Below, in pieces: positions 1 to 54,468 of a DNA stretch of 64,000 bases (its first letter is position 1; each line of letters opens with the position of its first letter). Source of the stretch: Euzebya rosea (GTDB taxonomy: Bacteria; Actinomycetota; Nitriliruptoria; Euzebyales; Euzebyaceae). The notes beneath the pieces were generated by a model. It was not told the origin of the DNA and made no database searches. It saw only the letters and a list, made by a program, of their open reading frames with translations. The stretch covers positions 248,001 through 312,000 of the forward strand of contig NZ_PGDQ01000003.1 in NCBI RefSeq assembly GCF_003073135.1, read 5' to 3'. Position numbers and translations under genes: made by a program.

Positions 1-1252
1 TCTCGGCCATCGTCAGGGGGACGTCGAACGATGACTGGACGACGTCGCGCTGCAGGAAGCCGTGGATGCCGTGGCCGAGCTCGTGGGCGAGGGTCATCAC
101 GTCGTTGTCGGTCCCGGTGAAGCTGAGGTTGATCCACGGGTGCTGTCCGGGCACGGCCACACAGAACGCCCCGGGCTGCTTGTGTTCGCCGGGGACGGCG
201 TCGATCCACCCCTCCTCGAAGTGCATCTCGACGATCTCCGCGGCGACGGGGGAGAAGTCGGCGTAGGCCGCGGTCACCAGCGCGCGGGCTTCGTCCCAGC
301 CGAACCGCTGGGGCGCGTCGCCCAGCGGCAACGGTGCGTAGCGGTCGTGCTCGGCGAGGGTGTCGAGCCCCATCAGGCGAGCCTTCAGGCGATACCAGCG
401 GCCGACCAGGTCGTAGCGTGCGGTCACCGCGTCGACGAGGGTGCGGACCTGCATGTCGCTGACCTCGTTGGCGAGGTTGCGGACGTGCAGCCAGCTGTCG
501 TGCCCCCGGAGCTCGTCGCGGATGGCGTGGTCCTGCACGAGCGTGTCGTAGATGGACGCGCGGATGCGGAGCTCGCCCATCAGGGCCATGGAGATGCCCT
601 CGGTCGCGGTGTCGCGGACACGCCGGTCGGGGGACTGCAGGTCCGCGGTCGCGTGCTCCAGCGGTCGTGGGGGACCGTCGGGACGGGGGACCTGGATGGT
701 GGAGCTCATGTTGGCGAACAGGCGCTGCCACGCCGCTGGGCCCGTGGGGCCGAGGGCGGTCAGGATCCGCTCCTCGGCTTCGCTGAGCACGTGATCGCGC
801 TGGCGACGAAGGGTCGTCAGGTAGTGGCGGTGGCCGGCGAGGGCCGGCTCCTGCAGGACCGTGGCGACCCGGTCGTCGGGCAGGGCCAGCAGCTCCAGCT
901 CGAGGAACAGGACCTCCTGCTGGGCCGTCGCGGTGACCTCGGCCAGCCGTGCGGCCAGGGCCTGGCGGGCCGGGTCGTCACCGTCGGTGGTGACCCGCAG
1001 GTTGGCGTAGGTCGAGGCCCGGCGGACGGGCAGGACCAGCTGCTCGTACTCGGTGATCGCGGCGGCCAGCCGTGGGGCGTCGAGGTCGGCAATCCGCCCC
1101 TTCCACCGGGTCGCGAAGGCCCGTGCGTGGCCCAGGGTGCCGTCGATGACGTCGAGCAGCTCGCGGTCGTCGGGACCGTCGAACAGGTCGGACAGGTCCC
1201 AGGTCGGCGGGTCGTCGTTGGTGCGTGCCGGCGGTGCTGCGGAGGTCGTCAC
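1..1252 (-). CDS. M3 family oligoendopeptidase, 3' end outside window
   Basis: This is the N-terminal ~417 residues of a cytoplasmic zinc oligopeptidase; the rest lies left of the window. Near the left edge (minus strand, about bases 40-90) the reading frame carries HELGHGIHGF, which is the M3 signature HExGHxxH, where the two His and a Glu further on would bind catalytic zinc. The N-terminus has the Trp-Asp-Leu-Ser-Asp-Leu-Phe segment usual for the PepF/M3 group. I place the start at GTG 1250-1252 because the conserved region begins about 17 residues later and no better start is in frame. It probably cleaves short peptides during protein turnover. The large plus-strand open frame over the same DNA is only its shadow. 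Confidence 0.9.
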   Translation of the reverse strand, partial: MTTSAAPPARTNDDPPTWDLSDLFDGPDDRELLDVIDGTLGHARAFATRWKGRIADLDAPRLAAAITEYEQLVLPVRRASTYANLRVTTDGDDPARQALAARLAEVTATAQQEVLFLELELLALPDDRVATVLQEPALAGHRHYLTTLRRQRDHVLSEAEERILTALGPTGPAAWQRLFANMSSTIQVPRPDGPPRPLEHATADLQSPDRRVRDTATEGISMALMGELRIRASIYDTLVQDHAIRDELRGHDSWLHVRNLANEVSDMQVRTLVDAVTARYDLVGRWYRLKARLMGLDTLAEHDRYAPLPLGDAPQRFGWDEARALVTAAYADFSPVAAEIVEMHFEEGWIDAVPGEHKQPGAFCVAVPGQHPWINLSFTGTDNDVMTLAHELGHGIHGFLQRDVVQSSFDVPLTMAE

Positions 1253-1300
1253 GGGCGGCAGCCTATCCGGGCATGGTGTCCGGGTGGCCCGCCCGAGGGG

Positions 1301-1726
1301 TCAGTGCGTCGCGCCTGCACCGTCGGCATCGCGGGCGGCGCCGATCATGTCGTCGAGGCCGCTGGCGGCCAGCGCCGAGTGGACCGCACGGAGGGTGGCG
1401 GCGAGGGTGTGGCGGACCGACACGGTGACCATGCCCGGCTCGGCGTCGACGTCGACATCGACGTCGGCACCGTCGGCGGTCAGCACCGTCGTGGGGGCTG
1501 GCGGCCACACCGGGTCATCCGGGTGGTCCTCGGCCAGGTAGTCCCAGGTCTCGGGTGCGATGGAGTCCAGCAGCTCCGCGACGCGGTCGAGGTCGCCGAT
1601 CAGGCGGGGGAGGGTCTCGCCGACCTCGTGCAGCAGGTCGTCGACCACCGCGGCGTGCTCGCGGCAGTACAGGTGGTCCGGTGGCAGGGACTCCCCGCAC
1701 ACCGCGCAGACATCATCTCGGTACAT
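1301..1726 (-). CDS. small CxxC protein of unknown function
   Basis: A 141-residue protein of unknown function. The N-terminus reads MYRDDVCAVCGESL and continues to YCREH about ten residues later, a Cys-x2-Cys ... Cys-x2-His pattern that would suit one small zinc finger. The rest is Asp/Ala-rich, with a run of alternating Asp and Val at about residue 85, and predicted to be soluble. The ATG at 1724-1726 overlaps the 3' end of the upstream cyclase gene by 14 bases, so the two are probably co-transcribed and translationally coupled. I do not recognise the family. A role tied to the cyclase-ATPase regulator is possible from position only. Confidence 0.7.
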   Translation of the reverse strand: MYRDDVCAVCGESLPPDHLYCREHAAVVDDLLHEVGETLPRLIGDLDRVAELLDSIAPETWDYLAEDHPDDPVWPPAPTTVLTADGADVDVDVDAEPGMVTVSVRHTLAATLRAVHSALAASGLDDMIGAARDADGAGATH

Positions 1727-4700
1727 CGGCGCCGAGGATATCGGGGGGCTGCACGTCGGTGTCCCGCGTGGCCGGGTGCGTGTCGCTGGCCTGTGTGTCG
1801 TCGATCCGGATGTCGAGGGCGCGCAGCCACCCGTCGCCCGTGATGCCGGCGGCGGGCAGGGCCTCCACGGCAGCGGCACGGTCGGTGGGCGTCCCGCACA
1901 GGTCGGCCTCCAGCAGGGTCACCAGGGCGCGGGTCGGCACGTCCTGGGCGTCACCGACGGCGTCGAGGGCGTGGTCGAGGTGGGCACGGACGGCGGCCGG
2001 GCGCCCCCGATGGTGGGCAGCGAGGGCGGCGGCCAGCCTGACCATGGTCCGGTCGAGGTAGCTCGCAACCGGCGATGCCTCCACGAAGTCCACGAGCGGG
2101 GTCACCTGCTGGACTGCGCCCGCACGGGCGTGCACCAACGCTGCGACCGCGCTGTTGGCGACGATCGTGGAGGGGCCGGCATCGGGCCGCAGCGACCTCG
2201 CGGCCACGGCCAGCGCCGTGTCGGTGTCGCCCTCCTGCAGCGCGGCCAGGGCCAGGTGGCGGTCGATGTCGGGACCGGCGGTGGCGGTCAGCGCGTCCGG
2301 CAGCCGGCTTCGTGCGCGCCGGGGTTCGCCCTGGTGAAGGTCCATCCCGGCGGCGGCGATCCGGGCGAGGCTGCCGTGGGCCACGTCCTCGAGGCGGTCG
2401 GCGAGCGTCACGCCGTGGTCGGCCTCGGCCACCGCGTCGGCGGCCCGTCCGAGGTGGGCGAGCGCCCGTGCGAGCACGGCGTGGCCGAGCATCTCCCCCC
2501 AGCGGTGGCCGATACGGTGCAGCAGCCGGATGGCCTCGGTGGCATGGCGGGCAGCGGACACCGAGCACCCCTGCCACGTGTGCACCCCGGCCAGCAGGAC
2601 CTCCGCGAGGCCAGCACCGAACGCGTGTGTCTCGGGGCGCAGGCCGGTGGACAGCGCCTGCTCGGCCTTCTCCATCGCCCCGTCGAGGTCGCCGGCGAGG
2701 AAGTCGATCCAGCCCAGCAAGCCGGCCGTGAACGCCGTGCCCAGCCGGTTGCCCTCGGCGGCGAAGCGGTCGCGGGCACGCACGGCCAGCAGGCTGGCAC
2801 GGGCCAGGTCACCGGCGTTGAAGGCGATCCAGGCCTGGTGCTGCTCGGCCCAGGCCATGCCGGCGACGTCGCCGAGGCGTTCGTGGACCTGCCCGGCCTC
2901 GTGGACGGCGCGGGCGGCCGGATCCTCCATGCCGCGGAAGATCAGCGTCATGCCGAGCATGCGCAGGGCCGTGGCGAGCGCATGTTCGTCCTCGGACCGG
3001 CGGGCCGCGGCGACCGCCTCCTCCAGGGCGTGCGTGGACTCCTCGAGGTGCCCCCGGGACTGCAGGCCCTGCCCGACGACGACCAGCGCGAGGGCCGTCA
3101 CGGCGGGGGAGGGGTCGGCGTCGACGATGGCGCCGGCGGCCGCGGTCGCCTCGTCGATCCGGCCGAGCTCCGAGAGCGCTCGGGCCCGGTGGAGCCTGAT
3201 CGTCCACGGGACGTCGGCGTCGAGGGCGATGGCCCGGTCGGCGAAGACGAGGGAGACCGCGGGGTCGCGCTGGCCAGCCCACTCGGCGGCAGCATCGAGG
3301 GCCTCGACCGCCTCGGTGCGCAGGTCCGCAGGCACCGGCCCCATCGATGCGGCGAGCTCCGCGGCCGTGGCCAGGTGCTGGGCACGGCGACGCAGGGTCG
3401 TGCCGCCGCCGGAGGGGTGTGCCAGTCGACGCCCGATGTCGCGGTGCCGCTCGACCCGTTCGCGCTTGGGCAGGCGCAGGTAGGCGGCCTCGCGGAGGGC
3501 ATCGGTCTTGAAGCGATAGCTGTCGCCCTCGATGACGAACAGGTCGCGGTCGACGAGGGCCTCCAGCAAGGCGGCCGCCCCGGCCTCTCCGCGGTCGGCG
3601 GCGACGGCCAGGAGCATGTCGACCGGGCCCGTCCAGCCGATGACCGCGGCGTCCTCGACGATCCGCCGTTCGGCGGGTTCGAGGACGTCGAGCCGTGCCG
3701 ACAGCAGCCCCCGCAGGGTCAGGGGCATGTCCTCGACGCCGTCGGCCTGGCCGCCCTCGCCGGCCAGCGCCGCGATCTCCTCCAGCATCAGCGGGTTCCC
3801 CCCGCTGCGACGGACCGCGGCGGCCACGGCGTCGTCGGTGGCGGACGGCCCGAGCAGCTCACGGGCCAACGCGCTGGCGTCGTCGTCCTGCAGGGGGCCG
3901 AGCCGCAGCCAGGTCACGTTCACGGCGTCGGTGAAGGCCGAGATGTCGGGGACGTGGTCGTTCGGGTCGCCCACCCGGCTGGTGGTGACGGCCATCACCG
4001 GCATGCGACGCAGGCCCATCAGCACGTCGGTCATCAGGTCGATGATCGCTTGGTCGGCCCACTGGATGTTCGCGAGGACCGCCACGATGGGACGCCGTTC
4101 GGCGAGGTGGCGGACCAGCGTCACGATCGCGGCGGTGGCGGCAGCCCGCGCGGCCTCGACGTGCTCGGCGCCGTCCGGTGACATCTCCATCAGCTCGTGC
4201 AGGGCCGACGCCATGCGAGCGGCTTCGGGGTCGTCGGCACGCATCCCCATCGCACCGGCCACCACCGTCGTCATCGCCGCCTCGTCGTCGAGGTCGATGT
4301 CCAGCCCCACGGCGTTGCGGAGCATGTCCGCAGCGGGGGTCCACATGCTGGCCTCGCCGTACGGCGGGATACGGGCCTCCAGGACCAGCGCGTCGTGCCG
4401 CTGTCGGGCCCGCTCGACGAAGGCGTCGGCCAGCATCCGCTTGCCGACACCGGCGTCGCCGATCAGCTCGACGAGGTGGGCGCGACGGCGGACCACGGCG
4501 ACGTCGAGGACCGCGTCCAGCAGCCGCTCCTCGGCCTCCCGGCCGACCACCGGCCCTCGGCGTCGGCCGAGCTCGTTTCCCGGGTCGCCGATCGGACGCA
4601 GGGCCACCCAGGTCTCGATGGGTTCCCGACGACCCCGGACGGCCAGGGGGCCCCGGCGACGGAAGGTGATCCGGTGCTGGGTCGCCCGGTGGGTCTGCTC

Positions 4701-5261
4701 GCCGACGAGGACCGCGCCCGGGTCCGCCGCGGACTCCAGCCGGGCCGCCACGTTGACCGCGTCGCCCATCGCGGTCCACGAGTCGTCGGCGGCGAGGCCG
4801 CCGACCAGCACCTCACCGGTGTTGACGCCGATCCGCATCCGCAGGTCGACGTCCTCCTCCAGGCCGACCCGGCGCACGGTCCGCTGCATCGCCAGCGCCG
4901 CACGGACGGCCCGCTCGGGGTCGTCCTCGTGGGCCACCGGGGCGCCGAAGAGCGCCACGATCGCGTCGCCGACGACCTTGTCGACCGTGCCCCCGTGCGC
5001 GGTCACGTCAGCCGCGATGCGGCCGAACAACCGGTCGACCAGCTGCTTGACCCGTTCGGGGTCCAGCGCCTCGGCCAGCGACGTGAAGCCGGCGAGGTCG
5101 CCGATCACGACCGTGGCCAGCCGCCGCTCGTCCGGAGGTGGCCCGGCAGGGGCCTGTCGTGGCGTGCCGCACGCGGGGCAGAACCGGGCCTCGTCGGCCA
5201 GCGCACCGCCGCACCCCGCGCAGGTCGAGGAGACAGCGGCGGCCGGCTCAGGAAGGGGCAT
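1713..5261 (-). CDS. class III adenylate/guanylate cyclase fused to STAND-like ATPase and TPR region
   Basis: A 1182-residue multidomain signalling protein. Residues ~15-35 form a zinc ribbon (CAGCGGAL ... CPACG). Residues ~45-210 are a class III nucleotide cyclase: GDLAGFTSL and KVVGDAIVALFG supply the two metal-binding Asp, and AMGDAVNVAARLE supplies the Asn/Arg transition-state pair. A STAND/AAA-like ATPase follows (~235-560), but its P-loop reads GDAGVGKRM, with Arg where Ser/Thr should be, and its Walker B position reads VLANIQWAD instead of an acidic pair, so ATP hydrolysis is doubtful. The C-terminal half is helical TPR-like repeats. ATG 5259-5261 is used, as the frame's earlier codon is TTG; the gene overlaps the S9 peptidase end by 14 bases. 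Likely a cAMP-producing sensor with unknown input. Confidence 0.88.
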   Translation of the reverse strand: MPLPEPAAAVSSTCAGCGGALADEARFCPACGTPRQAPAGPPPDERRLATVVIGDLAGFTSLAEALDPERVKQLVDRLFGRIAADVTAHGGTVDKVVGDAIVALFGAPVAHEDDPERAVRAALAMQRTVRRVGLEEDVDLRMRIGVNTGEVLVGGLAADDSWTAMGDAVNVAARLESAADPGAVLVGEQTHRATQHRITFRRRGPLAVRGRREPIETWVALRPIGDPGNELGRRRGPVVGREAEERLLDAVLDVAVVRRRAHLVELIGDAGVGKRMLADAFVERARQRHDALVLEARIPPYGEASMWTPAADMLRNAVGLDIDLDDEAAMTTVVAGAMGMRADDPEAARMASALHELMEMSPDGAEHVEAARAAATAAIVTLVRHLAERRPIVAVLANIQWADQAIIDLMTDVLMGLRRMPVMAVTTSRVGDPNDHVPDISAFTDAVNVTWLRLGPLQDDDASALARELLGPSATDDAVAAAVRRSGGNPLMLEEIAALAGEGGQADGVEDMPLTLRGLLSARLDVLEPAERRIVEDAAVIGWTGPVDMLLAVAADRGEAGAAALLEALVDRDLFVIEGDSYRFKTDALREAAYLRLPKRERVERHRDIGRRLAHPSGGGTTLRRRAQHLATAAELAASMGPVPADLRTEAVEALDAAAEWAGQRDPAVSLVFADRAIALDADVPWTIRLHRARALSELGRIDEATAAAGAIVDADPSPAVTALALVVVGQGLQSRGHLEESTHALEEAVAAARRSEDEHALATALRMLGMTLIFRGMEDPAARAVHEAGQVHERLGDVAGMAWAEQHQAWIAFNAGDLARASLLAVRARDRFAAEGNRLGTAFTAGLLGWIDFLAGDLDGAMEKAEQALSTGLRPETHAFGAGLAEVLLAGVHTWQGCSVSAARHATEAIRLLHRIGHRWGEMLGHAVLARALAHLGRAADAVAEADHGVTLADRLEDVAHGSLARIAAAGMDLHQGEPRRARSRLPDALTATAGPDIDRHLALAALQEGDTDTALAVAARSLRPDAGPSTIVANSAVAALVHARAGAVQQVTPLVDFVEASPVASYLDRTMVRLAAALAAHHRGRPAAVRAHLDHALDAVGDAQDVPTRALVTLLEADLCGTPTDRAAAVEALPAAGITGDGWLRALDIRIDDTQASDTHPATRDTDVQPPDILGADVPR

Positions 5262-7371
5262 CGAGGCCAAGCGTGCGCTGCAGGAAGGCCAGCTGCAAGG
5301 CCGTCAGGTTGGCGTTGACCGCCTCGTTGGGGGTGAAGTGGGTCACGCCCGACAGCGGCAGGACCTCGTGGGGCCGTCCGGCTTCCAGCAGCGCCCGGCT
5401 CAGGCGCAGGGTGTGGGCCGCGACGACGTTGTCGTCGGCCAGCCCGTGGATCAGCAGCAGCGGGCGGGTGAGCGCCGGGGCATCATCGATGATCGAGGAG
5501 CTGGCGTACGGCGCCGCGGTCGCGTCGACGCCCAGGTACCGCTCGGTGTAGTGGGTGTCGTACAGCGTCCAGTCGGTGACCGGTGCGCCGCTGACGGCGG
5601 TGTGGAACACGTCCGGTCGGCGCAGGACGGCCAGCGCCGCGAGGTACCCGCCGAACGACCACCCACGGATGCCGACCCGATCGAGGTCCAGCAGTCCGGG
5701 ATGGTCCTGCGACGCCCGGTGCAGGGCGTCGACCTGCCCCTGGAGGGGCGGGCCGGCGAGATCGTGGTGGATGGCGGCTTCCCACGACACCGACTGGCCG
5801 GGCGCCCCGGGCCCGTCGGTCACGAGCACGGCGAAGCCGTTGGCGGCGAACCACGCGGGGGTCAGGTGCGCGGCGCCGGCTGCCAGGACCCGGCGGGCAT
5901 GGGGGCCGCCGTAGGAGTCGACCAGGACGGGCAGCGGACCGTCCTCGGGGGTCCAGCCGGAGGGGTGGAGCAGCAGGCTCGCCGGGGTGTCGCCACCGCC
6001 GACCGGGCCGACGACGGTCACGGGCAGCTCGGGCGCCTCCTGGGCGTTGGAGGTGAGCGCGACCCCGTCGACGGTCACGGTCGTCGTCGTGTCGGACAGG
6101 CGTCGCTGGACGATCGCCAGGCGATCGGGGCGACCGGTCGCCCCGGCCACACCGTCGGGGTCGGACAGGACGGTCGTCGTGCCGTCGGTGCCCAGCGTCG
6201 CGACGACCGTGCACCACGGGGTGGCACGCACGTGGGCGGTCACGGTGACCGCGTCGTCGCTGGTGCACACGATGCTGGCGACCATCAGGTCCGGGTCCCC
6301 GAGCAGCTGTTGGTCCGCGCCGGTGCCGAGGGCGATCCGTCGGGTGTCGTCGGCCTGGACGACGCGGACCAGCCGACCGTCGGGGGTGCGGGTGGGACTG
6401 CCGGGGACGAGCTCGATCCACGGGTCGGCGACGTCGTCGACCAGGACCTGGGTCGTGCCGTCTCCGGGGTCGACGGACAGCACGGCGACCCGGCGCTGGT
6501 CACGGCTCTGGACGACGAGCAGGGGCGGTCCGGCGGCGGTCCAGACGACGTCGGCGACGTAGGGCAGCGCCTCGCGGTCCCACTCGATGTCGATCCGGTT
6601 GCCGCCGAGGTCGACCAGCGCGAGGGTGACCTCGGCGTTGGGCGTGCCCGCTGCGGGGTAGCGGATCTGGACGGGGCGGGCGTCGGGGTCGACGGGACCC
6701 GCGATCCACCAGCGGTGCACCGGGCCCGTGTCGACCCGCGCGGCGACCAGCGAGCGGCCGTCCGGCGCCCACCAGTACCCACGGGTGCGGCCCATCTCCT
6801 CGCCGGCGACGAACTCCGCCAGCCCCCAGCTGACATCGGGGGAGCTGTCGCGGGCCAGCATGCGGGGGGCGTTGGTGCCGTCGGCCCGGACGACCCACAG
6901 GGCCTCGTCCTCGACGTAGGCGATCATGCCGCCGTCGGGGCTCGGGCGCGGGTCGACCACGGGGCCGTCGACGGCCAGCTGCTCGGTGAGGCCGGTGGCG
7001 ACGTCGCAGACCATCAGCTTGCCGGACAGGGCGAAGACGGCGATGTCGGCGTCGGTGTCGGTGGCGTAGGCCACGATGCCGCTGCCGCGCTCGCGTGCCC
7101 GTTCGCGACGTGCACGTTCCTCGGCAGGGATGTCCTCGGGCAGGTCCGCCGGCATCAACGAGGCGGCGTCGGCCAGCAGTCGCTCACCGTCGTCGTCGAG
7201 GCACCACAGGGCCTGCTCGGGACGGTCGCCGTCACCGCGGAGGAACAGCGTCCGCTCGCTGGCGACCGTCAGGCTTCGCGGCACCCCGAGGGAGAACCCC
7301 TGGGTGCGGGCGTGGAGACGGGGAAAGTCCGGCACCGTCGTGTCGACGGGCCGGACCTCCTCTTGGCTCAC
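5248..7371 (-). CDS. S9 family (dipeptidyl-peptidase IV-like) serine peptidase
   Basis: A 707-residue prolyl-oligopeptidase-family enzyme. The first ~450 residues are the beta-propeller (DPP-IV N-terminal region, with YWWAPDG blades); the C-terminal ~250 are an alpha/beta hydrolase with nucleophile Ser in GWSFGGY, a catalytic Asp in GLADDN and His in THFTPNE. No signal peptide is evident, so it probably acts in the cytoplasm on proline-containing peptides. GTG 7369-7371 overlaps the TGA of the upstream gene in a GTGA arrangement, so translation is coupled. It sits between the zinc-ribbon gene and the cyclase gene in one minus-strand transcription unit. Confidence 0.92.
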   Translation of the reverse strand: MSQEEVRPVDTTVPDFPRLHARTQGFSLGVPRSLTVASERTLFLRGDGDRPEQALWCLDDDGERLLADAASLMPADLPEDIPAEERARRERARERGSGIVAYATDTDADIAVFALSGKLMVCDVATGLTEQLAVDGPVVDPRPSPDGGMIAYVEDEALWVVRADGTNAPRMLARDSSPDVSWGLAEFVAGEEMGRTRGYWWAPDGRSLVAARVDTGPVHRWWIAGPVDPDARPVQIRYPAAGTPNAEVTLALVDLGGNRIDIEWDREALPYVADVVWTAAGPPLLVVQSRDQRRVAVLSVDPGDGTTQVLVDDVADPWIELVPGSPTRTPDGRLVRVVQADDTRRIALGTGADQQLLGDPDLMVASIVCTSDDAVTVTAHVRATPWCTVVATLGTDGTTTVLSDPDGVAGATGRPDRLAIVQRRLSDTTTTVTVDGVALTSNAQEAPELPVTVVGPVGGGDTPASLLLHPSGWTPEDGPLPVLVDSYGGPHARRVLAAGAAHLTPAWFAANGFAVLVTDGPGAPGQSVSWEAAIHHDLAGPPLQGQVDALHRASQDHPGLLDLDRVGIRGWSFGGYLAALAVLRRPDVFHTAVSGAPVTDWTLYDTHYTERYLGVDATAAPYASSSIIDDAPALTRPLLLIHGLADDNVVAAHTLRLSRALLEAGRPHEVLPLSGVTHFTPNEAVNANLTALQLAFLQRTLGLDAPS

Positions 7372-13339: not shown

Positions 13340-14191
13340 TCAGCCCTTCTCCACCGGCACGTCCACGAGGGAGCCGTACTCGGTCCAGGACCCGTCGTAG
13401 TTGCGCACCCGGTCGTAGCCCAGCAGCTCGTGCAGGACGAACCACGAGTGGGCCGACCGCTCGCCGATCCGGCAGTAGGCGACGATCTCGTCGTTGCCGT
13501 CCAGGCCCTTGCCCTCGTAGATCTCCTTGAGCTGGTCGATCGACCTGAACTCACCGGTGTCGGGGTTGACCGCGGTCGCCCACGGGATGTTCGTCGCGCC
13601 GGGGATGTGCCCGGGCACCATCGCCGCTTCCAGCGGCAGGTGCGGCGGGGCGGTCGTCTCGCCGGAGAACTCCGCGGGCGAGCGAACGTCCACGAGGGCC
13701 ACGCCGTCGGGGGCGCCGACGAACTCGGCCAGGACCTGCTCGCGCCGCGCCCGGATGTCGGCGTTGGGTTCCTGCGTGACGTACCCGGAGGTCGCGGTCA
13801 CCGCGGTGGTCTCGTCGGTCAGCTTGCGACCCTCCAGCTCCCACTTCTTGCGGCCGCCGTCCATCAGCGAGACGGTCTCGTGGCCGTAGACCTTGAAGTA
13901 CCAGTAGGCGTAGGCGGCGAACCAGTTGTTGTTGCCGCCGTACACCACGACGTGGGTGTCGTTGGTGATGCCGTTGGCGTCCATGAGGGCGGCGAAGCCG
14001 TCGGGGCCCAGGAAGGTCCGGCGGACCGGGTCCTGAAAGTCGGCCTTCCAGTCGAAGCCGATGGAGCCGGGGATGTGGCTGCGGCTGTAGGCCTCGATGT
14101 CCTCGTCGACGTCGATGACGACGACACCGGGGTCGTCGGCGTGGTCGGCAACCCAGTCGGTGGTGACGAGCGCGTCGGGATTGGTTGGCAT
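13340..14191 (-). CDS. thiosulfate sulfurtransferase (two-domain rhodanese)
   Basis: A 283-residue tandem rhodanese. The first domain (~1-125) is catalytically silent and carries VVVIDVDEDIEAYSRSHIPG; the second (~150-283) holds the active-site Cys in YCRIGERSAHSW, the CRIGERS loop usual for actinobacterial thiosulfate sulfurtransferases (SseA/CysA type). It transfers sulfane sulfur from thiosulfate to cyanide or to thiol acceptors. ATG 14189-14191 is used, with a GGCGGGG stretch as a weak ribosome site; a TAGGCT -10 box on the minus strand at about 14261-14266 may drive it. First gene of a three-gene minus-strand unit. Confidence 0.93.
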   Translation of the reverse strand: MPTNPDALVTTDWVADHADDPGVVVIDVDEDIEAYSRSHIPGSIGFDWKADFQDPVRRTFLGPDGFAALMDANGITNDTHVVVYGGNNNWFAAYAYWYFKVYGHETVSLMDGGRKKWELEGRKLTDETTAVTATSGYVTQEPNADIRARREQVLAEFVGAPDGVALVDVRSPAEFSGETTAPPHLPLEAAMVPGHIPGATNIPWATAVNPDTGEFRSIDQLKEIYEGKGLDGNDEIVAYCRIGERSAHSWFVLHELLGYDRVRNYDGSWTEYGSLVDVPVEKG

Positions 14192-14345
14192 GGCGGGGTC
14201 CTTCGGTCGAGATCGGCGAGCCGGCGGCGGGCAGCGGGCCCACGCGGCAACGGCGCGGAGCCTAGTCCCGGTCGTTGGTTCGATCGCCCGTGGGAACGGT
14301 GGCAAACCGCTGGCGGGACAGGGGGAACGGTGGGAACGATGCGGG

Positions 14346-16094
14346 GTGGCAGACTCCGCCGACATGCCGTCCCCTGCCGTTCCCCCGCCCCCACCTGCCG
14401 ATGCCCTGCCGGAGGATCCCGCCCGCGACAACGCCACGGCGCTCGCCGAGCTGGCCGAGGCGTATCACCAGCTGCAGATGTCGGCGGACCCGCTGATGGC
14501 GACCTACTACGGGCTGGACGTCCACCGCGACCGGTTGCCGGACACGACCACCGAGGGACGCGACCGGGTCCGCCGGGACACCGCAGCCCTCCGACATCGG
14601 GTCGGGAGGATCGATCCCGCCGGGCTGTCCCCGACGGAGGAGACCACGCGGCTCGTGCTGCTGCGGCTCACGGGCGACGACCTGGCGGCGCTCGACGGTC
14701 GCTGGTCGGCCCGGTCGGTCGACGACTTCGCGTTCGGGCCGTCGGCGGAGCTGCTGTACCACCTCGGGCGCACCCAGGTCCTCGACGACGTCCACGGCCA
14801 CGAGCACGTGCACCGTCTGGCCGCCGTGGGTGCCTACCTCGACGGGGCGCTGGCCGAGCACCGGCGAGCCGTCGGCGACGGCATGACCCCGACTGCCCGA
14901 GGTGTCGCCGAGGCCGTCCGGCGGGTCCGGCGGGTGGCCGGCACGCCTGCCCAGACGAGCCCCCTGCTCGCGCCGTTGTCCGACCGCGATCCGGTGGTGC
15001 GCGCGCAGGCCGCCAACGCCTACCGGGAGGTCGTCGTGCCGGCCCTGCACCGCTACGCCGACGGCCTCGAACGCCACGTCGCCCCCGGCGCGCGTCCAGA
15101 CGACCGGTCGGGCCTGTGCTGGACCGACGACGGGGCCGAGGTGTACGGCGCGATGTTGTCGCACTTCACCACGCTCGACCGTCCGGACCCGGCCGCGATC
15201 CACGACCAGGGACTCGAGATCGTGTCCGCGCTGCAGGAGGAGATCGCGGAGGTGGGGCAGCGGCTGATGGGGCTGTCGGACCCCGCGGCGATCAGCGAGC
15301 GGCTGCTGAACGACCCGTCGCTGGACTACGCCGACCCCGCCGAGATCGTGCCGCACGCCCAGGCGATCTGCGACCGGGCGGCCGAGGCCGCGCGTGCCGT
15401 CTTCGGGCGGCTGCCGACCACGCCCTGCATCGTCAAGCCCGTCCCCGAGGACGAGACCGGGGCGGGCGCGGCCTTCTACGACCCGCCGACGCCGTCGCGC
15501 CCGCACGGCATCTACTGGGTCAACACCGTCGACCCGCGGCTGCACCGCTACGAGGCCGAGGCAACCGCGTTCCACGAGGCGGCGCCCGGCCACCACACCC
15601 AGCTCGGGCTGCAGGCCGAGCTCGACCTGCCGGCCTTCCGGCGCATCGGGACGTTCCTGTCGGGCTACGGCGAGGGCTGGGGCCTGTACACCGAGCGCCT
15701 CGCCGACGAGCTGGGGTGGTACTCCGGGGACCTGGACCGGCTCGGCATGCTGGCCACCGACACGATGCGGGCCTGCCGGCTGGTGCTGGACACCGGCCTG
15801 CACCACCACGGCTGGTCACGCCAGCAGGCCATCGAGTGGTTCACCGCCCATGCCCCGCTGTCACCGGAGCTGATCGTCAGCGAGGTCGACCGCTACATCG
15901 CCTACCCGGGCCAGGCATGCAGCTACATGCTCGGCCGGCTGGAGATCGTCCGGCTGCGCGCGCAGGCCACCGAGCAGTTGGGCGACCGGTTCGACCTGTC
16001 CGGTTTCCACGACACCATCCTCGGCGAGGGGGCCGTCCCGCTGGCGGTGCTCCAGCCGATGGTCGACCGCTGGGTCGCGTCGCTCGTCGAGTGA
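14346..16094 (+). CDS. DUF885 family (M32-like zinc peptidase fold) protein
   Basis: A 582-residue protein with the DUF885 hallmark FHEAAPGHHTQ (about residue 410), an HExxxGH-like zinc motif, followed by a Gly-rich GYGEGWGLYTERL and a C-terminal YIAYPGQACSYMLG segment, all in the usual order and length for the family. Family members are thought to be zinc carboxypeptidase-like enzymes, sometimes periplasmic, but there is no signal peptide here. Both GTG 14346 and ATG 14364 are possible starts; neither has a strong ribosome site. The upstream gap contains three copies of GGGAACG, of unknown meaning. The 3' end converges with the TerB-like gene, leaving nine bases. Confidence 0.86.
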   Translation: MADSADMPSPAVPPPPPADALPEDPARDNATALAELAEAYHQLQMSADPLMATYYGLDVHRDRLPDTTTEGRDRVRRDTAALRHRVGRIDPAGLSPTEETTRLVLLRLTGDDLAALDGRWSARSVDDFAFGPSAELLYHLGRTQVLDDVHGHEHVHRLAAVGAYLDGALAEHRRAVGDGMTPTARGVAEAVRRVRRVAGTPAQTSPLLAPLSDRDPVVRAQAANAYREVVVPALHRYADGLERHVAPGARPDDRSGLCWTDDGAEVYGAMLSHFTTLDRPDPAAIHDQGLEIVSALQEEIAEVGQRLMGLSDPAAISERLLNDPSLDYADPAEIVPHAQAICDRAAEAARAVFGRLPTTPCIVKPVPEDETGAGAAFYDPPTPSRPHGIYWVNTVDPRLHRYEAEATAFHEAAPGHHTQLGLQAELDLPAFRRIGTFLSGYGEGWGLYTERLADELGWYSGDLDRLGMLATDTMRACRLVLDTGLHHHGWSRQQAIEWFTAHAPLSPELIVSEVDRYIAYPGQACSYMLGRLEIVRLRAQATEQLGDRFDLSGFHDTILGEGAVPLAVLQPMVDRWVASLVE

Positions 16095-50569: not shown

Positions 50570-51401
50570 CCTTGTGCGCGCCCAGCGCGGCGAACGGCGT
50601 CGCGAAGAGGATGCGGAGGTCCTCGCGGAGGCTGACGCGGTCGACGTAGTCGAGGTCGACGTCAACATGTTCGTGCATGTCGCCCTCGCCGCGCATGGAG
50701 ATCTGCCACAGGCCGGTCACGCCGGGCTTCACGGCGTGGCGGCGGTGCATCCACGGTTCGTAGTGGCGGTTGATCACGACCGGCAGCTCCGGGCGGGGGC
50801 CGACCAGGCTCATGTCGCCGCGGACGACGTTGATCAGCTGCGGCAGCTCGTCGATGGACAGCTTGCGCAGCGTGCGGCCGACCGCGGTGTGGCGGGGGTC
50901 GGCGTCGGTCTTGTGGGTCTGGCGACGCTCGATGCCGTCCCAGCGGCCCTCCGCCAGCGCCTCGAGGTCCTTCTGGCTCGTGGACCTGCGGTCGTGGCCC
51001 ATGGTGCGCAGCTTCAGCACCGTGAACCGCCGGCCGTTCAGGCCGATGCGCTCCTGTCGGAAGATGACGCCCCTGCCCATCGTCATCCGCACGGCCAGCA
51101 TGCCGGCCAGGAGGAGGGGCAGGGTCAGCAGGAGCAGAAGACCTCCAGCAAGGCGGTCCAGCGCAGGCTTGACCACCTTCACGTACACACCGTCGGGGCG
51201 GTCGGTGCCGTCGACCTGGGCCTGCAACCGCGCGATCGTGGCCTTCTCGTCCTCCGAGACGGTGCGTGGCGCGGCGACGACCGTCACGGCGTCGTAGGCC
51301 GGGCGGGCGTGGGCGGTCGGGCGTGCATCGACGTCGACGGCGGTGCCATCGATCACGTCGGCGGACGATCCGCTGGGGCTGTTGTCGGGATGGACGAGCA
51401 T
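50562..51401 (-). CDS. bacterial sugar transferase (priming glycosyltransferase)
   Basis: A 279-residue enzyme that transfers a sugar-1-phosphate to undecaprenyl phosphate, starting polysaccharide or glycoprotein glycan assembly. One hydrophobic helix (LAGGLLLLLTLPLLLAGML, about 83-101) precedes the catalytic part: RIGLNGRRFTVLKLRTM, LRKLSIDELPQLINVVRGDMSLVGPRPE and VKPGVTGLWQI are the family signatures. The first ~75 residues are variable. It stands alone; no other polysaccharide genes are near. ATG 51399-51401 with AAGGA upstream. Confidence 0.93.
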   Translation of the reverse strand: MLVHPDNSPSGSSADVIDGTAVDVDARPTAHARPAYDAVTVVAAPRTVSEDEKATIARLQAQVDGTDRPDGVYVKVVKPALDRLAGGLLLLLTLPLLLAGMLAVRMTMGRGVIFRQERIGLNGRRFTVLKLRTMGHDRRSTSQKDLEALAEGRWDGIERRQTHKTDADPRHTAVGRTLRKLSIDELPQLINVVRGDMSLVGPRPELPVVINRHYEPWMHRRHAVKPGVTGLWQISMRGEGDMHEHVDVDLDYVDRVSLREDLRILFATPFAALGAHKGV

Positions 51402-51556
51402 GGGTACGCAGGAGTCCTTGGGTTCTCACTCAGTGTGCCACTACGTTGCGTGTTTCGACAGTGCAGAGCGGATTCTTGAGTGCCATGTGCAGCGGTTCGC
51501 TGATGCAGGCGGGGCGGATGGGGGACGACCCGACCGGACATGCAAGGATCGGGGAC

Positions 51557-52444
51557 GTGACGTTCACCGATTACGACTCCGTGTTCCGCAAGAAGTTGTT
51601 CGCCGATCGGGTGGCCCTGGTCACCGGTGGTGGGACGGGCATCGGCAGGGCCATCGCCCACGAGCTGGCAGCCCTCGGCGCCACGGTGGTCATCGCCGCA
51701 CGCCGGGAGGAGCCGCTGCGGGAGACCGTGGCCGAGATCGAGGCGGCGGGCGGCTCGGCCGACCACGTGATCGCCAACATCCGCGATGCCGACGAGGTCG
51801 AGGCCATGGTGGCCACCGTGGTCGAACGGCACGGCCGGCTGGACCTGCTGGTCAACAACGCGGGGGGCCAGTTCCCCTCACCTGCGGAGCAGATCTCGCC
51901 CAACGGGTGGCGCACCGTCGTCGACCTCAACCTCAACGGCACGTTCCTCGTGACCCGTGCGGCCTTCAACGCCTGGATGGGGAAGCACGGAGGGGCCATC
52001 GTGTCGGTCGTGGCCGACATGTGGAACGGCTTTCCCTACATGTCCCACACGGCGGCGGCGCGAGCGGGCGTGGTGAACATGACCATGAGCCTCGCGGTGG
52101 AGTGGGGGGCCAGGGGCGTGCGGATCAACGCGGTCGCGCCCGGCACGATCTACTCCAGCGGCATGTCCACCTACGACGAGGAGTTCCAGCGGACGGCGGC
52201 CCAGCAGTCCTCCCGCATACCGGCCGGCCGCGTGGGCACGGAGTCCGAGACCTCGGCCGCGGTGGTGTTCCTCCTCTCCCCGGCCGCATCCTTCATCACC
52301 GGCGAGACCCTGCGCGTCGACGGCGGCGGATCGCTCCTCAAGGCGCCCATGGTCCCGGTGGAGGCCCACCGCAACATGCCGACCTACGACGGGTTCCACC
52401 TCGCTCGGGAGATCCCCGAGGAGTGGCTGCCCCCGCAGGCCTGA
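51557..52444 (+). CDS. SDR-family reductase, PECR-like (trans-2-enoyl-CoA reductase)
   Basis: A 295-residue short-chain dehydrogenase. LVTGGGTGIGRAIAHEL is the NADP loop, NNAGGQFPSP the middle motif. The C-terminal part follows the peroxisomal trans-2-enoyl-CoA reductase closely: HTAAARAGVVNMT, VAPGTIYSSG and FLLSPAASFITGETLRVDGG. In this group the usual YxxxK becomes TxxxR, so the mechanism differs from normal SDR enzymes. It probably reduces enoyl-CoA. GTG 51557 has GGGGA upstream. Divergent from the sugar transferase over 155 bases. Confidence 0.9.
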   Translation: MTFTDYDSVFRKKLFADRVALVTGGGTGIGRAIAHELAALGATVVIAARREEPLRETVAEIEAAGGSADHVIANIRDADEVEAMVATVVERHGRLDLLVNNAGGQFPSPAEQISPNGWRTVVDLNLNGTFLVTRAAFNAWMGKHGGAIVSVVADMWNGFPYMSHTAAARAGVVNMTMSLAVEWGARGVRINAVAPGTIYSSGMSTYDEEFQRTAAQQSSRIPAGRVGTESETSAAVVFLLSPAASFITGETLRVDGGGSLLKAPMVPVEAHRNMPTYDGFHLAREIPEEWLPPQA

Positions 52445-52509: not shown

Positions 52510-53298
52510 TCAGAGGCCGGCGCCAACCTCCAGGGCGACCAGCAGCGCCAGCACCGCTGCGTCGGCCAGCAGGATCATCGCCCCGATGATGTCGCCGGTC
52601 AGCCCGCCCAGTCGCCGAACGGCGCTGACCCTGACCGCGAACGCCGCAGCCCCTGCTGCCAGCACCACCGGGATGGCCTCGAGGCCGGCGAACGCCGTGG
52701 TCGCGGCCACCGCGGTCACCCCGGCAGCGAGGGCGGGGGCGACACGGAGGTGGTCCAGCAGGACCGCGCCCGACCCCTCGCCGCGGGCGGGCACGGCGTT
52801 GAGCATCGCGACGGCCGTGGCGCCGCGGCTGAGGCTGCCGGCGACCACCAGCGCCGCCGCTCCCGCCACCGGGCTGAGCGCGGCCAGCAGGTTGACGCGC
52901 AGCAGGACGACCAGGACGAGCGCCAGCACCCCGTAGGCCCCGGTCGCGGAGTCCTTCATGATCCGCAGCCGGTCAGCGGGCGTGCGCCCGCCGAACAACC
53001 CGTCGGCGGTGTCGGCGAGGCCGTCCTCGTGCAGCGCACCGGTCAGCATCACGGTGGCCACGACGGCCAGGACCGCGGCAGCCCGGGTCGGCAGGGCGAG
53101 CGCGGCCATCCACCACACGAAGCCGGACAGCCCGCCCACCAGGGCGCCCACGACCGCGTACCAGGCCACGCTGTCGGCGACGTCGCGATCGTCCTCCAGG
53201 GGGTCGCCGACGGGCAGCCGGGTGAGCAGCTGCAGGGCCACGAGGAACAGACGGGGATGCACGGGTATGGCCATCATCGCCGGTCGGTGGGCGATCAT
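52510..53298 (-). CDS. cobS: adenosylcobinamide-GDP ribazoletransferase (cobalamin synthase)
   Basis: A 262-residue inner-membrane enzyme that joins alpha-ribazole to adenosylcobinamide-GDP, a late step of vitamin B12 synthesis. LTRLPVGD at the start, VMLTGALHEDGLADTADGLFGG (the acidic metal/phosphate motif; key residues His, Asp and Asp) and ATGAYGVLAL are the family marks; the chain has about seven membrane helices. The start may be ATG 53298 or ATG 53274, the latter nearer to typical CobS proteins. No other cob genes are in the window. Divergent, eight bases away, from its degenerate paralogue. Confidence 0.93.
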   Translation of the reverse strand: MIAHRPAMMAIPVHPRLFLVALQLLTRLPVGDPLEDDRDVADSVAWYAVVGALVGGLSGFVWWMAALALPTRAAAVLAVVATVMLTGALHEDGLADTADGLFGGRTPADRLRIMKDSATGAYGVLALVLVVLLRVNLLAALSPVAGAAALVVAGSLSRGATAVAMLNAVPARGEGSGAVLLDHLRVAPALAAGVTAVAATTAFAGLEAIPVVLAAGAAAFAVRVSAVRRLGGLTGDIIGAMILLADAAVLALLVALEVGAGL

Positions 53299-53306
53299 GC
53301 AGATCG

Positions 53307-54038
53307 ATGCGCGCTGTCCTCGCCCTGTTCACCGCCCTGCCCGTCGAGTGGGACGGCGACGACCTCGACCGGTCGTGGCTGCTGGCCCCCGTGGTCGGGA
53401 TGCTCATCGGGCTGGTGTGGTTCGTGTTCCACCAGCTGACGGTCGGACTGGTCGGCCCGGTCGTCGCCGGGGCGTTCGTCGTGGCGGTCAGCGCCGCGCT
53501 GACGGGCAGCCGCGGGTTCCGTGGGCTCGTGGGCCTGGCCGACGCGATGGGCGGCGCCCCTGCCGTGCCCGGTGCGCCGCCGATGGCGGGGGTCGGGGCG
53601 CTGGCGGTGGCGCTGGTCGTCGTGGTCGAGGCCAACCTCATCCAGCGGGTGAACCTGGCCCCGGAGATGATCGTGGTCGTCCCGCTCGTGGCGAGGGGAG
53701 TGCAGGCCCTCCTGCTGCGCGCCGGGGACGACATGGTCGGCGTCACCCCACCCAGCCCCCGGGCCAAGCTCGGCCTGGGCCTCGTCCTGCTCGCCCTGCT
53801 GGCCCTGCCGATCCCCCTGCACTCGCTCGTCCGTCCGGAGCGGCTGAACGGCCCGCTGGACGCGGTCGGGTACCTGACGCTGGGCGTGGCGGCGCTGGCG
53901 GGCGCCTTCGTGGTCGGTGGGATCACCCGCGCGTGGACCATGGCGCGCTTCGGTCCCCTCGACCCGCGCGGATGGCACACGATCGGCCTGTTCGCCGAGG
54001 TCGCAGCGCTGGTCGTCGTGGCGGTCCGGATCGACTGA
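53307..54038 (+). CDS. membrane protein, degenerate CobS paralogue
   Basis: A 243-residue membrane protein that aligns by eye with the adjacent CobS: ALFTALPVEWDGDDL with LLTRLPVGDPLEDD, LAPVVGMLIGLVWFV with YAVVGALVGGLSGFVW, SAALTGSRGFRGLVGLADAMGG with MLTGALHEDGLADTADGLFGG, and the C-terminal FGPLDPRGWHTIGLFAEVAALVVVAV with LGGLTGDIIGAMILLADAAVLALLVAL. The HEDGLADTADG motif is lost (only one Asp kept), so it is not an active synthase. Length and helix number are kept. It may be a regulatory subunit or a repurposed transporter-like protein. Confidence 0.75.
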   Translation: MRAVLALFTALPVEWDGDDLDRSWLLAPVVGMLIGLVWFVFHQLTVGLVGPVVAGAFVVAVSAALTGSRGFRGLVGLADAMGGAPAVPGAPPMAGVGALAVALVVVVEANLIQRVNLAPEMIVVVPLVARGVQALLLRAGDDMVGVTPPSPRAKLGLGLVLLALLALPIPLHSLVRPERLNGPLDAVGYLTLGVAALAGAFVVGGITRAWTMARFGPLDPRGWHTIGLFAEVAALVVVAVRID

Positions 54039-54159: not shown

Positions 54160-54468
54160 ATGGCCAGGCGACGCAGCGGCCGCCGCCCCTCACAGTCGAG
54201 GCGGTACATCGACGAGGAGACCCGCGCAAAGCGCGAGGCTCGCTCGGGCAACACCAAGGAAGACGCGCTCGAGATGGAGGGCGTCATCGAGGAAGCCCTC
54301 CCCAACACCATGTTCCGCGTGAAGCTGGACAACGGGCATTCCATCCTCGGACACATCTCCGGGAAGATGCGCAAGCACTACATCCGGATCCTCCCGGGCG
54401 ACCGGGTCACCGTCGAGGTGTCCCCCTACGACCTGACTCGCGGCCGGATCACCTACCGGTACAAGTAG
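54160..54468 (+). CDS. infA: translation initiation factor IF-1 with N-terminal extension
   Basis: A 102-residue protein whose last ~72 residues are IF-1 almost to the letter: [37 protein letters not shown] and [17 protein letters not shown]-1 blocks the ribosomal A site during start-codon selection. The first ~31 residues ([15 protein letters not shown], then a charged helix) are an Arg-rich extension not found in usual IF-1, and no alternative start lies nearer the conserved core except one Met at the core itself (MEGV). The gene is alone instead of in the ribosomal-protein operon, so it may be an additional copy. Confidence 0.92.

Follow-up and report, generated by a model that had tools for sequence, protein, structure and literature searches.

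In Salmonella CobS (PF02654, TIGR00317), D82, D86 and D89 of the loop-2 motif HxDxxxDxxD and D229 of the loop-6 motif GxxGDxxG are each essential (PMC8092220). The reason why CobS is always membrane-bound has been stated as an open question (PMC8092220, PMC8749415). Salmonella CobS in E. coli has been proposed to act as the anchor of a multienzyme complex, and inactive CobS still affects the membrane of this host (PMC8749415). Apart from canonical CobS, there is an infA-linked clade, here termed type II CobS, which carries the motif HLDALADVADG; in genomes of related families (G018, G023, G024), intact-motif type II cobS genes are found in the row cobT-cobS-infA. Membrane pseudoenzymes in general retain the scaffold of an enzyme, have lost its catalytic residues and are under purifying selection; a search for known cases derived from CobS found none.

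The window analyzed here, a stretch of 64,000 nucleotides from Euzebya rosea (genome G000), contains a canonical cobS and, divergently oriented, a gene for a CobS-like membrane protein that lacks the catalytic motifs, hereafter the motif-less protein (Table 1). The listed ATGs are 8 bases apart, a gap that is also found in the close relative G003; cobS has additional in-frame ATGs about 20-25 bases inside its listed start, so that the true intergenic gap may be about 30 bases. A single bidirectional promoter serving both genes, as assumed in the preliminary description of the locus, is not borne out, since the start spacing is kept in one close relative only and in the congener G002 the motif-less gene instead begins within the end of the upstream short-chain dehydrogenase (SDR) gene, its start overlapping the SDR stop codon.

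Table 1. Coordinates of cobS, the motif-less gene and neighboring features in the window
Feature	Position	Strand	Remarks
Short-chain dehydrogenase (SDR)	51266..52444	+	true start probably further in
cobS, canonical (adenosylcobinamide-GDP ribazoletransferase)	52510..53298	-	262 aa; all listed essential residues present
Motif-less CobS-derived membrane protein	53307..54038	+	243 aa; slot upstream of infA
Former loop-2 catalytic motif site in motif-less protein	53514..53546	+	GFRGLVGLADA, residues 70-80, replaces HxDxxxDxxD
Former loop-6 motif site in motif-less protein	53949..53987	+	FGPLDPRGWHTIG, residues 215-227, replaces GxxGDxxG
infA (translation initiation factor IF-1)	54160..54468	+	conserved neighbor downstream of motif-less gene

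The motif-less protein is homologous to CobS, with which it shares length, hydropathy layout, predicted helices and an N-terminal TxLP segment in addition to profile similarity. The adjacent cobS product matches Pfam CobS with 164 bits; for the motif-less protein, hmmscan with default filters yielded no Pfam match, and a six-frame search scored it at 26.3 bits against PF02654, above the family cut-off of 23.2 bits. It differs from CobS in that both catalytic motifs are missing and in that its weak N-terminal match to TIGR00317 (21 bits, E 2e-4) falls far below the equivalog cut-off of 110 bits. The profile-profile check was run with hhalign and identified a genuine full-length CobS homologue, with a probability of 98.4% against type II CobS (E 7.5e-15, 220 columns) and 94.3% against canonical CobS (E 1e-7, 98 columns).

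The loss of the motif HEDGLADTADG, on which the preliminary description was based, is confirmed: the motif-less protein has GFRGLVGLADA at this position, and the second motif, which had gone unmentioned, is lost too, with GPLDPRGWH in place of GGLTGDxxG. An alignment of 27 proteins, for which eight conserved positions were tabulated, shows that a single one of these positions is left in G000 and G003 (the last D of the first motif) and none in G002. All other CobS proteins in this alignment keep the H, D, D and D of the first motif, the exceptions being the four motif-less copies (G000, G003, G002 and G016); the G016 copy has lost D86 and the loop-6 GD but retains the H and the two outer D of the first motif. 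Judged by these residues, the motif-less protein is probably catalytically dead. Candidate replacement motifs were sought between the G000 and G002 copies (LPxEWD, ARFGxxDxxxWHxIG); the identity is not clustered beyond chance, and therefore no new conserved motif is claimed.

The motif-less gene is of separate ancestry from the adjacent cobS. In a maximum-likelihood tree, a branch with 100/100 support separates the motif-less proteins together with type II CobS from canonical CobS, and the AU test rejects a topology in which the motif-less proteins are sister to the group of the adjacent cobS (p-AU 0.009). Removal of the motif columns leaves this result unchanged, again with 100/100 support and with this sisterhood rejected (p-AU 0.0068). 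The tree and the AU test thus rule out a recent tandem duplication of cobS, and the plus-strand protein can no longer be described as a locally arisen paralogue of its neighbor. The placement depends on long branches, so its finer details are tentative, and the motif loss in G016 may or may not have been independent.

In the genus of the window, the genes at this locus follow one another as acyl-CoA dehydrogenase (-), sugar transferase (-), SDR (+), cobS (-), motif-less gene (+), infA (+), quinone oxidoreductase-like (-) and S1 (+). In related families, canonical cobS lies directly before infA with a divergent acyl-CoA dehydrogenase gene (ACAD(-)/cobS(+)/infA(+) in G005 and G011), and G016 has the order ACAD(-)/motif-less(+)/infA(+), which the genus of the window shows with additional intervening genes. 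Given this conserved order around infA, the motif-less gene sits at the place expected for an old cobS. It thus resembles the type II genes of G018, G023 and G024 in clade and in its slot upstream of infA, whereas these keep HxDxxxDxxD and the loop-6 GD and have cobT adjacent.

Several further observations concern this neighborhood. cobT and/or cobS immediately upstream of infA (L048, L049, L052, L054, L055, L059) are found in many genomes of the order, and the location of B12 nucleotide-loop genes beside a translation factor gene is unusual. The G016 copy (L038:1483-2223), from another family, is a second infA-linked CobS with the partly broken motif HLDAAARLADE, and this genome also carries a separate canonical cobS that is intact. 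A search for cobT in G000 gave no match (G000:C7, L108 about 1-6225), which reflects either a deletion or an assembly break; in G003 (L109 about 13913-14935), cobT follows shortly after cobU, and the alignment of G000 with G003 ends just before cobT.

The motif-less gene could be a decaying relic of a displaced infA-linked cobS that stays open by chance in GC-rich DNA, a reading suggested by its position in the old cobS slot, its absence from the congener G001, its strong divergence in G002 and the second erosion in G016. Against it stands the selection that acts on the gene. Between G000 and G003, the single close pair on which this estimate rests, dN/dS is 0.098 (bootstrap 0.053-0.157), compared with 0.095 for cobS, and 17 amino-acid changes are observed, versus an average of 54 when the 85 nucleotide changes are placed neutrally. 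Neutral simulations gave a minimum of 41 amino-acid changes, none of the 2000 being as conserved as observed, and a stop codon arose in 39% of them; together with the codon-position pattern, these simulations rule out a chance open reading frame. The gene is therefore under purifying selection between these two genomes, and the earlier view that it is kept holds, with a rounded dN/dS of 0.10 (0.05-0.16) equal to that of cobS. The frame is full-length in G002 as well, although this copy is 33% identical, with a tree distance about twice that of cobS within the genus, and the comparison is saturated at synonymous sites and carries little information on selection. Such divergence implies that constraint on the longer scale is weak or changing. 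On balance, we consider the relic reading unlikely.

The preliminary description suggested a dead CobS that acts as a regulatory subunit of the active one or has a new membrane function, of which the second possibility fits better. If the motif-less protein were a regulatory or structural subunit of its CobS neighbor, and the two genes were co-expressed from their divergent starts, this would agree with the head-to-head layout kept in G003, with the equal constraint on both genes and with the proposal that CobS belongs to a membrane-anchored multienzyme complex (PMC8749415). The distribution of the genes argues against it. The pair is present in two of four congeners (this genome and G003), so its expected conservation in relatives holds for G003 and breaks down in G001, which has cobS only, the motif-less gene being absent at the cobS locus, and in G002, which has the motif-less gene only. 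Among the genomes compared, adjacency is thus seen in just two, which are close relatives of each other. In G002, whose genome is 98% complete, a search for the late B12-assembly genes found no match to CobS, CobT, CobU or CobD/CbiB, so that the motif-less protein, in a further difference from CobS, persists in the absence of its supposed partner. This genome retains six B12-binding domains and is therefore probably a B12 auxotroph and importer within the genus. Since G001 and G002 each hold one gene alone, the motif-less protein does not co-occur with CobS as a partner subunit would; an obligate partner is ruled out, regulation of CobS cannot be the general role, and even a role as subunit in the present genome appears quite improbable.

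The structure of the motif-less protein was predicted with AlphaFold2. With the 27-row alignment, which includes CobS sequences and makes the result partly CobS-guided, a confident helical model was obtained (pLDDT 89.1, pTM 0.87); with the four motif-less copies only, pLDDT was 64.5. No solved CobS relative was found by sequence search, and Foldseek of the model against PDB and BFVD gave no match at E <= 0.001. An altered transferase using another substrate and other residues would suit the predicted CobS-like scaffold (pLDDT 89) and the constraint on the protein, but a single essential aspartate is left in G000 and in G003 and none in G002, and no replacement motif stands out, which makes it a very doubtful alternative.

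Wider searches added no further members. Neither the motif-less protein nor the alignment A1 gave a match in the genome-contig search, and a profile search with A1 across 396 genomes of the phylum, with up to seven candidates scored per genome, identified no additional one. In the phylum survey for motif-less CobS, second matches in five genomes were split or frame-broken gene fragments or a weak sub-cut-off match; since this survey failed to detect the motif-less gene of G000 itself, it gives only weak support for rarity outside the order.

We therefore favor, with a probability of about 0.6, the reading that the plus-strand gene encodes a former CobS repurposed as a non-catalytic membrane protein, in a role that does not need B12 synthesis. 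Its ancestor would be the infA-linked CobS of the order, from a clade distinct from canonical CobS. The canonical enzyme, now adjoining on the opposite strand, would perform the B12 chemistry, and the old copy would have lost its catalytic aspartates, retained the polytopic membrane scaffold and assumed a pseudoenzyme role independent of cobamide synthesis. Because selection keeps the gene, even in G002, where no late B12 gene was found, a different membrane job is probable, and the combined evidence suggests a loss of activity together with a gain of new function. The protein resembles membrane pseudoenzymes in its scaffold, residue loss and selection, and differs from them in having no known partner or regulated enzyme. 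A putative role as membrane scaffold or anchor is our guess by analogy, as Salmonella CobS is the proposed anchor of a complex and has a membrane effect even when inactive. More tentatively, such a B12-independent pseudoenzyme, for example a protein anchor, may have arisen more than once in the order in the same slot upstream of infA.

A CobS scaffold that selection maintains although the catalytic residues are lost, and although one genome apparently lacks the pathway, would amount to a natural experiment showing that the scaffold itself can be useful. Automatic annotation may label such genes cobS, and B12 synthesis would then be overstated.
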